Positions 53,683 to 57,395 of a stretch of 64,000 nucleotides of DNA are shown piece by piece. The stretch covers positions 374,001 through 438,000 of the forward strand of contig NZ_CP082944.1 of the NCBI RefSeq assembly GCF_019933155.2. Reading direction: 5' to 3'. Positions within the stretch are counted from its first letter, which is position 1. Each line of letters starts with the position of its first letter. The stretch is from Metabacillus dongyingensis. Lineage in GTDB: Bacteria > Bacillota > Bacilli > Bacillales > Bacillaceae. The notes under the pieces are model-generated. The model was not told the DNA's origin. It made no database searches and saw nothing but the letters and a program-made list of their open reading frames with translations. A program made the position numbers and the translations under genes.

Positions 53683-53712
53683 TAATAAATACGGATGAAG
53701 CGGGTGGTTAAA

Positions 53713-55029
53713 GTGAGCAAGAGAATGACAAAAGTGCGGTATGGTGTTGTTTTTATGTTGTTTATCACCGTCATTATAAATTACATGGATCGAAGCAATA
53801 TTGCAGTAGCTGCCCCATTTATTTCAAAGGAACTAGAGTTAGACCCTGTGCAGATGGGCCTTATATTTTCGGCGTTTGGATGGACCTATTGTGCTCTTCA
53901 AATACCTGGCGGATGGATACTGGACAAGCTGGGAAACAGAAAAACCCATGCAATAGGCATAGCTGGATTCTCTATAGCAACTTTACTGCAGGGGTTTGTA
54001 CACGGTTTCTCGGGATTTATCTTACTTCGCGTTGGATTGGGAGCGTTTGAGGCACCAGCTTTCCCGACAAATAGTAAAGTAGCGGCCAGCTGGTTTCCGG
54101 AAAAAGAAAGAGCTAGAGCCGTTGCGATTTATACCTCAGGACAGTTTATAGGATTGGCCTTTTTAACTCCAGCCTTAATTTTTTTACAGCAATGGTTTGG
54201 CTGGAGGGGCCTGTTTATCATTACAGGTATTATTGGAATATCTTGGGCGATTCTCTGGTTTTTACTTTATCGTGATCCTCAGCACAGTAAAAAGGTTAAT
54301 AAACAAGAACTCGATTATATTCGTGAAGGCGGGGCAATCTTTGATGCTATTGCAGATGATAAGTCTGTAAAATCTACAGTAGGCATAAAAGACTTTGCAA
54401 TCGTATTAAAAAGCAGGAAGTTATGGGGTATATACATTGGACAATTTGCAGTGGCATCCACGCTATGGTTTTTCTTAACCTGGTTTCCCACGTACCTTGT
54501 TGAATATAGAGGATTAACGTTTGTAAAAACCGGTTTATTGGCTTCATTACCATTTTTAGCAGCATTTGTAGGTGTATTATCTTCTGGATTCTTGTCTGAT
54601 TTCCTTGTGAAAAAAGGGGTTTCTGACAACGTTGCTAGAAAAGTGCCTGTTATTACTGGGTTATTGCTGGCAACCTCTATAATTGGGGCAAACTATGTGG
54701 AAAATACAAATTTAGTCATCATGTTTATGTGTATAGCTTTTTTCGGGAACGGTTTCGCTTCGATTACCTGGGTGTTTGTTTCACTGTTGGCACCAAAACG
54801 GCTTGTTGGGATAGCTGGAGGGGTATTTAACTTTATTGGCGGTACAGCATCTATCATTATTCCTATTGTAATTGGTTTTTTAGCAAAAGGAGGAAATTTT
54901 GCTCCTGCACTTACTTTTATCGCCTGTGTAACTCTGATAGGAGCTTTATCATACATTTTCTTAGTTGGAAAAGTTGAGCGGATTCAGGTAAAAGAAGAAG
55001 AATCTTTAAAAGGTTATGAATCTGCATAA
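53713..55029 (+). CDS. MFS galactonate/anion:cation symporter (DgoT-like)
   Basis: A 438-residue ACS-family transporter, 12 TM. TM1 is IINYMDRSNIAVAAPFI, followed by WTYCALQIPGGWILDKLG and GAFEAPAFPTNSKVAASWFPEKERARAVAIYTSGQFIG, standard for this family. GTG 53713 (MSKRMTKVRYG) has GGGTGG upstream; ATG 53695 has none. Imports galactonate for the preceding enzymes. Last gene of the operon. Confidence 0.9.
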   Translation: MSKRMTKVRYGVVFMLFITVIINYMDRSNIAVAAPFISKELELDPVQMGLIFSAFGWTYCALQIPGGWILDKLGNRKTHAIGIAGFSIATLLQGFVHGFSGFILLRVGLGAFEAPAFPTNSKVAASWFPEKERARAVAIYTSGQFIGLAFLTPALIFLQQWFGWRGLFIITGIIGISWAILWFLLYRDPQHSKKVNKQELDYIREGGAIFDAIADDKSVKSTVGIKDFAIVLKSRKLWGIYIGQFAVASTLWFFLTWFPTYLVEYRGLTFVKTGLLASLPFLAAFVGVLSSGFLSDFLVKKGVSDNVARKVPVITGLLLATSIIGANYVENTNLVIMFMCIAFFGNGFASITWVFVSLLAPKRLVGIAGGVFNFIGGTASIIIPIVIGFLAKGGNFAPALTFIACVTLIGALSYIFLVGKVERIQVKEEESLKGYESA

Positions 55030-55063
55030 CTTAATAAATAGGTATATGGGAATTGTGGTGTTT

Positions 55064-55097
55064 AAAGACTAATCCTAAAGGGATTAGTCTTTTTTAT
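55064..55097 (+). terminator. Terminator of the galactonate operon
   Basis: AAAGACTAATCC and GGATTAGTCTTT pair perfectly with a short loop and T run, 35 bases after dgoT. The tandem array begins two bases later. Confidence 0.92.
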
Positions 55098-55098
55098 T

Positions 55099-55958
55099 TA
55101 TAGGGGAATCAAACGCTCTCTATGAGTATCCAAGTCTAGGATTGTGCCAGTATAGGGGAATCAAACGCTCTCTATGAGTATCCAAATCTAGGATTAAGCC
55201 TGTAAAGAGGAATCATACGCTCTCTATGAGTATCCAAATCCAGGATTAAGCCTGTAAAGAGGAATCATACGCTCTATGAGTATCCAAATCCAGGTTTGAG
55301 CCTGTAAAGAGGAATCAAACGCTCTCTATGAGTATCCAAATCTAGGATTGAGCCAGTATAGGGGAATCAAACGCTCTCTATGAGTATCCAAATTTAAGAT
55401 TGAGCCAGTATAGAGGAATCAAACGCTCTCTATGAGTATCCAAAACCAGGATTGACCCAGTATAGGGGAATCATACGCTCTCTATGAGTATCCAAAACCA
55501 GAATTATGCCTGTAAAGAGGAATCAAACGCTCTCTATGAGTATCCAAATCCAGGTTTAAGCCTGTAAAGAGGAATCATCCGCTCTCTATGAGTATCCATA
55601 TCCAGGATTAAGCCTGTAAAGAGGAATCATCCGCTCTCTATGAGTATCCAAATCCAGGATTAAGCCTGTAAAGAGGAATCAAACGCTCTCTATGAGTATC
55701 CAAATCCAGAATTAAGCCTGTAAAGAGGAATCAAACGCTTTCTATGAGTATCCAAATCCAGGATTGAGCCAAAATAGGGGAATCATACGCTCTCTATGAG
55801 TATCCAAAACCAGGATTAAGACTGTAAAGAGGAATCAAACGCTCTCTATGAGTATCCAAATCCAGGATTAAGCCTGTAAAGAGGAATCAAACGCTCTCTA
55901 TGAGTATCCAAAACCAGGATTGTGCCTGTTTAGGGGAATCAAACGCTCTCTATGAGTA
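55099..55958. repeat. 52-bp tandem-repeat array, 16 full units plus a partial
   Basis: Head-to-tail units begin at 55099, 55151, 55203, 55255, 55305, 55357, 55409, 55461, 55513, 55565, 55617, 55669, 55721, 55773, 55825 and 55877, with a truncated 30-base unit from 55929. All full units are 52 bp except the fourth, which is 50 (a lost CT in the CTCTCT run). The core GAATCAAACGCTCTCTATGA and the next GTATCC are nearly invariant. The end of each unit and the start of the next occur in two linked forms, GCCTGTAAAGAGG or GCCAGTATAGGGG. No frame is open across the array, there are no spacers, and each unit holds a GGA(A)TCA/TGA(GTA)TCC dyad. It lies between two converging operons. Confidence 0.95.
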
Positions 55959-56065
55959 ATTGAGACTGTTCCTCTGCAAACGGAGATTGCAACAACAGCT
56001 AGTGTCCGGCAAGGGAAGAGATGTTGATGATGTGGCCTTGTTTTCTTCCTCTCATCCTTCTTAAA
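55959..56065. other. Unique sequence after the array
   Basis: No repeat or gene signal; leads to the terminator of the minus-strand PTS operon. Confidence 0.4.
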
Positions 56066-56095
56066 AGGAAAAAGCCAAAGTTTCCTCTGGCTTTA
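56066..56095 (-). terminator. Terminator of the PTS operon
   Basis: On the minus strand AAAGCCA pairs with TGGCTTT and is followed by TTCCTTTT, about 40 bases after the IIC stop. Confidence 0.8.
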
Positions 56096-56132
56096 CTTTT
56101 TCATGGATTGGATAAAAGGTGTTTTATTCTTT

Positions 56133-57395
56133 TTACGTAAACAGTTGAATTATGAATGAAATCAATATTCCAACGACCCCAAAGTCCGAATCTCCAAATG
56201 TTGTCCCTTCAAATCCTAATGATCCAAGGACAGGCAATAACAGTGCCGGTAAAAACGAGATTAATAGCCCGTTGGCAAATGCTCCAATAATAGCGCCGCG
56301 TCTGCCGCCAGTGGCGTTTCCGAATACTCCTGCAGCCGCACCTGTGAAGAAATGGGGGATGAGACCTGGTACGATTATTTTTAAGCCCAGTATAGGCAAG
56401 ATAAACATTGATAATGCCCCAGCCAAAAAGCTTGATAGAAAGCCAATGATTACAGCATTTGGTGCGAAAGGGAAGACGGCAGGTGCATCAAGAGCGGGCT
56501 TCGCATCCTTTACAACTTTATCCGCGATTCCTTTAAATGCAGGAACGATTTCAGCAATTAACATCCGAACCCCTGCTAAGACAATGTACACCCCAGCAGC
56601 GAAAGTGATTGCCTGCATAAATGAGAAGACAAGGAAGTTTGTGCCGCTGCTTAGTTCTGCTTCGACAAAGCTTTTTCCTGCTATCGGGGCGACAATCAAA
56701 AAGAGGATTGTCATCGTTAAGCTCATTGCCACTGATGTATCGCGCAAAAATCCAAGGGATTTGGGCACTTTGATATCCTCAGTTGATTTCGATTTGTCTC
56801 CTAATCTTTTTGCCAGAAAGGCAGAAGTGAAATATCCAATGGAACCAAAGTGGCCAAGAGCGATGCTGTCATTGCCTGTAATTTGCCGTACATATGGCTG
56901 GAGCAGTGCAGGCATGAGCACCATCAAACTCCCTAATATAAGTGACCCGATAATAATTAACGGAATGCCCGTTATTCCGCCTGTTGCGAATACAGCAGAC
57001 AGCAAGCAAGCCATAAATAAGGTATGATGCCCAGTTAAGAAAATGTATTTGAACGGAGTGAACCGTGCAATCAGGATGTTAACGAGCATCCCGAAAAGCA
57101 TGATCATGGCTGTTTCCGTTCCAAGCGTTTCTTGTGCAATCGCAACGATTGCTTCATTATTAGGAATAATCCCCTGAATATTGAACGCTTTTTCAAACAT
57201 GCTGCCAAAAATGTCAAGAGCACCAATTAATATCGTGGCTCCGGCACCGAGAATAACAAATCCCATAATGGTTTTCAGTGTTCCTGAAACCGTATCTGCC
57301 ATTCCTTTTTTCTGAAGAAGCAGTCCAATAAATGCAAACAATCCAACAAGAATGGCTGGTGTACCCAGCACATCCTTCATAATAAAATCAATCAT
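56133..57395 (-). CDS. Ascorbate-type PTS EIIC (UlaA family)
   Basis: 420-residue EIIC with ten or eleven TM helices. UlaA-like marks: VLGTPAILVGLFAFIGLLLQKK at the start, FTPFKYIFLTGHHTLFMA, and HFFTGAAAGVFGNATGGRRGAIIGAFANG near the end. It transports a sugar or sugar acid while IIB phosphorylates it. The UlaA family includes ascorbate porters, but no ulaG-type lactonase or other catabolic enzyme is adjacent, so the substrate is open. Last gene of a regulator-IIB-IIC operon. Confidence 0.9.
   Translation of the reverse strand: MIDFIMKDVLGTPAILVGLFAFIGLLLQKKGMADTVSGTLKTIMGFVILGAGATILIGALDIFGSMFEKAFNIQGIIPNNEAIVAIAQETLGTETAMIMLFGMLVNILIARFTPFKYIFLTGHHTLFMACLLSAVFATGGITGIPLIIIGSLILGSLMVLMPALLQPYVRQITGNDSIALGHFGSIGYFTSAFLAKRLGDKSKSTEDIKVPKSLGFLRDTSVAMSLTMTILFLIVAPIAGKSFVEAELSSGTNFLVFSFMQAITFAAGVYIVLAGVRMLIAEIVPAFKGIADKVVKDAKPALDAPAVFPFAPNAVIIGFLSSFLAGALSMFILPILGLKIIVPGLIPHFFTGAAAGVFGNATGGRRGAIIGAFANGLLISFLPALLLPVLGSLGFEGTTFGDSDFGVVGILISFIIQLFT

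Follow-up and report, generated by a model that had tools for sequence, protein, structure and literature searches.

The window analysed here, a stretch of 64,000 nucleotides from Metabacillus dongyingensis (bases 374001-438000 of C1, the 5.05 Mb contig of this genome, G000), carries a 52-bp tandem array at positions 55099..55965. We read this array, with a probability of roughly 0.55, as a non-coding, solo member of a repeat family whose dedicated gene lies at another place on the chromosome; gene and arrays together would form an element of nuclease and phased tandem repeats that functions in the manner of repetitive extragenic palindromes (REP) and their REP-associated tyrosine transposases (RAYT), without being a member of that system. 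Two genes of this kind are present in the genome, each next to one of the two main array families: NERD#1 (C1 3162569-3163480), which encodes a NERD-domain protein of about 304 amino acids, adjoins an array of family A, the family of the window array, and NERD#2 (C1 4564759-4565670) adjoins an array of family B.

The window array is real. Tandem Repeats Finder (TRF) places it at 55105-55958 (period 52, 16.5 copies, 90% matches, score 1302), as one of two TRF rows in the window, and GGAATCA starts 17 times within it, at fifteen spacings of 52 bp and one of 50 bp (the fourth unit), which agrees with the 16 full units, one of odd length, and the partial last one described in a first-pass annotation. 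Its + orientation is set by GGAATCA-N11-TGAGTATCC, a 27-bp dyad that appears first at 55105..55131 (+ strand) and recurs every 52 bp; half-sites of family A number 1.32 per unit and those of family B 0. Several other readings of that annotation were borne out as well. Stops interrupt all six frames, as expected from its claim that no reading frame crosses the array; the 25-bp linkers are common to the units of each array, unlike the unique spacers of CRISPR; the unit of 52 bp does equal five helical turns; and the GGA..TCA/TGA..TCC dyad recurs in other arrays of the genome and fits the protein binding that had been raised as a possibility.

Rather than a lone minisatellite, this is one of dozens of arrays on the chromosome. 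A 156-bp query gave 138 matches in the genome, grouped into 22 arrays, the listed matches all lying on C1, with the second contig free of them. All 22 consensus units have GRGGAATCA-N11-TGAGTAYCC in common, with variations; linkers vary from array to array and the step stays at 52, except in L011, where steps of 41, 52 and 53 are mixed. The 22 arrays all lie between larger open reading frames (ORFs), two being overlapped only by short array-internal ORFs (82-90 aa). In 2.044 Mb of chromosome that, the window excepted, were not picked for repeats, 33 tandem arrays reach a score of 100 or more; period 52 is found in 16 of them (window array included) and period 51 in one, the next commonest period being 21 (5 arrays). 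These period statistics of unselected DNA exclude chance as the source of the window array. Counting the array beside NERD#2, 39 arrays of period 51-53 were found in about 48% of the chromosome. Family-A half-sites (TGAKTNYC type) occur in 27 and family-B half-sites (TGGAGCAC/GCAGCAC type, a pattern defined after the arrays had been viewed) in eight; four fit neither strict pattern, though by eye three of them resemble family A and the 51-bp one family B, and L011, one of the 27, also has family-B matches, read as lying in its linker.

The linkage between NERD genes and arrays holds from both directions. With the NERD#1 protein as query, a NERD gene stands beside the array in nine of 120 listed repeat-selected loci, in addition to the own genome and the sister species (G005), and at all 11 an array is 3′ of the gene, 63-146 bp past the aligned end. 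In the reversed test, eight of eight NERD loci picked for the gene alone have a 52/53-bp array, 12-57 bp past the aligned end and on the 3′ side only (arrays on both sides were seen only at L022 and L258); these eight include one locus each from G003 and G004, both without family-A arrays by model R1. In seven further gene-selected loci, from other genera, the gene is followed by a 52-bp array at a distance of 36-115 bp, judged by coordinates. This brings the gene-selected total to 15 of 15 loci with a 52/53-bp array 12-115 bp downstream of a gene of this NERD subfamily, most of the source genomes having already been known as array-bearing. By comparison, six genes that match Pfam NERD but fall outside the subfamily (the two listed have 24-25% identity) have no 52/53-bp array in the approximately 0.9 kb fetched, one of the six showing short low-scoring repeats within the next gene. 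NERD was also the sole excess when array-flanking proteins were scanned against Pfam (4 of the 109 scanned out of 132, the 23 dropped beforehand coming mostly from loci outside Bacillales).

Which family an array belongs to corresponds, within the genus, to the clade of its NERD gene. A tree of 15 NERD proteins puts the A-linked and the B-linked proteins of the genus in separate clades (support 0.99 and 0.94), and a third type occurs in G002, whose NERD-linked array resembles arrays elsewhere in the same genome. Arrays of TGAKTMYC boxes at step 52 are present in 20 of 299 Bacillales genomes (five by a single match), 19 of which carry the NERD subfamily, compared with 106 of the 298 genomes searched for it; a reversed pattern, an arbitrary box at the same step, matched nine genomes, all nine with the subfamily, the lists of genomes having been matched by hand on their handles. 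Two of 40 handles searched, G286 and G362, have arrays but no intact subfamily gene; G146 and G365 in that list look like one genome.

NERD#1 matches the Pfam NERD family (PF08378) at E=1.9e-18, and is predicted to comprise a PD-(D/E)XK nuclease, a four-cysteine ribbon and a C-terminal winged helix. Among 66 sequences, E40, Q70, D72, K87 and N88 of the nuclease site are invariant and E85 is conserved in at least 90%, and a fold search agrees; a sequence search for solved relatives returned one chance-level match only (E=0.22). The NERD domain resembles the defence proteins MADS6, PglW and MkoA, all below cut-off, and no anti-phage model of NCBIfam or PADLOC was matched above its cut-off (27-36 bits against 460 for MADS6; the best PADLOC match, at 19.5 bits, was to a model with no stated cut-off). 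No conserved operon partner was found: at 15 loci compared by eye, no upstream gene is common across genera and synteny is kept at genus level only. Several NERD copies have in-frame stops, and NERD seems to be a gene family that expands and decays. Neobacillus and other genomes (G348, G361, G171, G294 and G360) contain, at E <= 0.001, between 10 and 13 NERD matches per genome, several interrupted by in-frame stops. Staphylococcal SmdA, which has the PF08378 domain in common with NERD#1, differs in being a membrane protein of cell morphology that is short of several conserved NERD residues, according to the available excerpt of PMC9040797.

The same design exists in other genera. An exact-core scan of named genomes gave no matches, but a spaced scan for three TGAKTMYC boxes at step 52, with one genome per species, yielded at least 120 stretches, mostly from Bacillales by title. 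Among the first 80 of these, period 52 is found in 93 of 104 arrays, a figure biased by the query, and at least five loci hold a second 52-bp array of other sequence. Consecutive dyad spacings of up to 130 bp, in own and other-genus loci together, are exactly 52 in 774 of 867 cases, 51 in 34 and 53 in 25, the loci having been found via 52-bp queries and a few records counted twice. The dyad can be written as a symmetric 27-bp motif, approximately GGKAWTCAWW-N7-WWTGAWTMCC, which is matched by 120 of 159 arrays of 52-bp consensus; 33 do not match and six lie between, and a 10-N7-10 dyad stands above shuffles in motif and non-motif arrays alike (7.47 and 6.94 against 5.7 of 10). Flanking genes in other genera are tandem at 34 arrays, convergent at 24 and divergent at six (64 with both flanks, of 87), and 18 of the 87 arrays (80 loci) overlap a mechanical ORF of 79-237 aa. 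That unrelated sequences keep the same step is best taken to reflect either phasing on one helix face (5 x 10.4 bp) or a ruler in array making. Metagenome-assembled genomes of Bacteroidia/Bacteroidales (L087, L097, L136 and L147) also have 52-bp arrays, with GGTACTCA-like boxes; the NERD#1 query had no match within these short loci.

We hypothesize that the 27-bp dyads are binding sites of the NERD protein, probably in dimeric form; one dyad per five helical turns would then set every bound dimer on the same side of the DNA. Cutting or nicking by NERD, followed by repair or replication, could then expand and homogenise the arrays and occasionally spread them, and a solo array such as that of the window would be a non-autonomous passenger, as REPs and bacterial interspersed mosaic elements (BIME) are for RAYT, albeit with an unrelated enzyme and a fixed ruler. 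According to the available excerpt of PMC2817692, RAYT enzymes adjoin their own REPs, repeats and enzyme co-evolve, and repeat abundance is tied to the gene; physical linkage, co-evolution and abundance tied to the gene are found in kind for the NERD/array pair, and both systems combine many short palindromic extragenic repeats with a cognate enzyme gene beside its own repeats. However, RAYTs are IS200/IS605-related tyrosine (Y1/HUH) transposases, whereas the enzyme here is a predicted PD-(D/E)XK nuclease with a four-Cys ribbon and a winged helix; the RAYT gene lies between two inverted REPs, whereas here the array is on the 3′ side; and the units here run head to tail at a fixed 52-bp step, in up to about 30 copies. 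Because enzyme class, one-sided layout and fixed head-to-tail step differ, we do not place the pair within REP/RAYT. A bolder proposal, which we offer tentatively and with more doubt than belief, is a new genetic element: a non-transposase nuclease that would write and spread its own arrays along a five-turn ruler, with several independent pairs of differing specificity per cell.

The arrays resemble CRISPR in having regular, partly palindromic repeats beside a nuclease gene, but linkers are common within each array instead of being unique spacers, and dozens of arrays are solo. NERD is listed as a member of the ‘putative CRISPR auxiliary genes’ in a figure legend (excerpt of PMC10910872); perhaps, and this is a guess, that listing stems from arrays of this sort. 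Among the open-licence PMC papers listed by our searches, none dealt with such arrays or linked NERD to tandem repeats, and no described class was found for the array, in line with the first-pass annotation.

An unlikely but live alternative is that the arrays serve the host, NERD being a dedicated binding protein and the arrays its docking sites for chromosome organisation, or else self-marks or sinks that spare the host from a defence nuclease. A step constant at five turns would suit this, as would the likeness below cut-off to MADS6, PglW and MkoA. The distribution along the chromosome points the same way: dnaA lies at C1 base 334, the GC skew turns at 2.48-2.50 Mb, and the ter-side block C1 2001001-2821000 accounts for 40% of the unselected DNA and for two of its 17 arrays of period 51/52 (p=0.012), an array-poor stretch around the terminus that is suggestive only. 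Comparison with the sister species, in which 31 own arrays were tested against 20 stretches of G005, 12 of them picked for arrays, bears on both sides. Both flanks were matched for nine arrays and one flank for three, the other 19 being without a flank match. Eight of the nine two-flank places hold an array in G005, with fewer copies by TRF (12.6 against 16.5 for the window array), which would favour a host function. At the ninth, a 30-copy array is absent in G005 and its flanks are 10 bp apart; this site is not collinear with its neighbours there, which implies a rearrangement nearby. The absence of an entire array in a sister species, the patchy presence of the NERD subfamily (E <= 1e-60 in 106 of 298 Bacillales genomes), copies of the gene with in-frame stops and arrays without an intact gene are all unlike a core organiser.

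Both families have solo copies dispersed along the chromosome, frequently beyond the terminator of a gene, and the presence and copy number of these arrays vary between species. The condition under which the first-pass annotation would have been refuted, a repeat confined to one strain and lacking a conserved core, does not hold: sister-species arrays stand at matching places with changed copy number, and the core recurs in other genera. The partition or replication array suggested in the first-pass annotation does not fit a set of 39 arrays that are gained or lost from one species to another. Sites of the SlmA, RacA, Noc and CIRCE kinds were also considered and dropped, with no match. A phage or plasmid origin was likewise rejected, as the spaced pattern had no match in viral contigs, the array none in plasmid and phage records and NERD none in plasmid records.

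More doubtful still is an RNA-level explanation, by which an array 3′ of the nuclease gene would be transcribed as tandem hairpins (10-bp stems, 7-nt loops) that restrain the nuclease in the manner of a type III antitoxin, solo arrays being sponges or relics. In type III toxin-antitoxin systems (ToxIN), a nuclease gene stands beside tandem repeats of tens of bases, the repeats being located 5′ of the toxin gene and serving as an RNA antitoxin; in the present case, by contrast, the arrays are downstream of the gene and mostly elsewhere, behind terminators. Such transcription would be consistent with arrays that start 12-146 bp past the NERD end, with the failure of a simple rule to find a terminator for NERD#1, and with a 10-N7-10 dyad that exceeds shuffles even in unrelated arrays. 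Across 108 distinct array dyads, positions 2, 7, 11 and 12 agree between arms more often than shuffled, whereas positions 5 and 6 vary independently. Both a homodimer whose half-sites are species-specific and a hairpin are compatible with this cross-genus covariation, which leaves DNA versus RNA undecided; because it is mixed, we retain RNA as a rival. The structured repeat RNA raised in the first-pass annotation otherwise fared poorly: RNAalifold gave 0 pairs for an alignment of 66 two-unit rows, covariation of the dyad pairs within the own genome is no higher than in shuffles, and Rfam returned nothing over gathering score for window positions 54000-57000 (best 17.7 against 80 bits, rli42, in the flank at 55027-55095). 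The winged helix also suggests DNA.

The genomic setting argues against the RNA reading as well. A terminator comes between gene 3′ end and array in 23 of the 28 cases facing the 22 own arrays, by a simple rule with no control set and with one weak match, and the 12 own arrays between co-directional genes point with the genes in six cases and against them in six (hand count). The window array itself lies between converging genes, as first annotated, each with an intrinsic terminator before the array: on the left an MFS-type (major facilitator superfamily) transporter gene (53695..55029, +) with its terminator at 55064..55095 (+, -15.3 kcal/mol, T-run), and on the right a PTS (phosphotransferase system) IIC-like transporter gene (56133..57395, -) with its terminator at 56071..56094 (-, -13.1 kcal/mol), both gene names being read from the sequence.

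Neutral minisatellites, made by slippage and incidentally near NERD genes, would account for freely varying copy number and a non-coding window array, but are already strongly disfavoured by the 52 step kept across unrelated sequences, by the presence of arrays at 15 of 15 genes of one NERD subfamily and at 0 of 6 other NERD genes, and by an array family that tracks the NERD clade in the genus. The selfish minisatellite proposed in the first-pass annotation comes close, but lacks the cognate NERD nuclease; that gene, outside the window, and the other own arrays lay beyond its view, and its interpretation is partly supported.

If the nuclease and phased-repeat reading is correct, a widespread unnamed nuclease subfamily (106 of the 298 Bacillales genomes sampled) gains a visible DNA partner, and what these NERD proteins do could then be tested directly. 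The short list of dedicated repeat-making systems would grow by a second, unrelated enzyme type, the dominance of one minisatellite period in the own genome would be explained, and matched pairs of DNA-binding nucleases and sites would be on offer. For users of CRISPR finders, regular arrays adjoining a nuclease gene need not be CRISPR.

A terminator-like palindrome of about 42 nt (GGGTAC..AATTGCAC.GCAATT..GTATCC..TTTT) recurs between genes and arrays at L011, L018, L020 and L023. A third NERD protein of the own genome, at L207:8091-9697 (C1 ~1509091-1510697), has 23% identity to NERD#1; 3′ of its gene, 21-mer repeats of the AAAGTCTCGGAATTA type lie inside a 247-bp repeat, and similar 21-mers occur in dispersed own arrays at 1303421, 1456548, 1569820, 1618285 and 1945382. 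Twenty-one base pairs make two helical turns, and there may be, in this one case, a second ruler of two turns. Arrays of 227-228-bp units, a different repeat class, are present in both species (C1 1811705-1812688 in the own genome; L262, C1 759898-761141, in G005).
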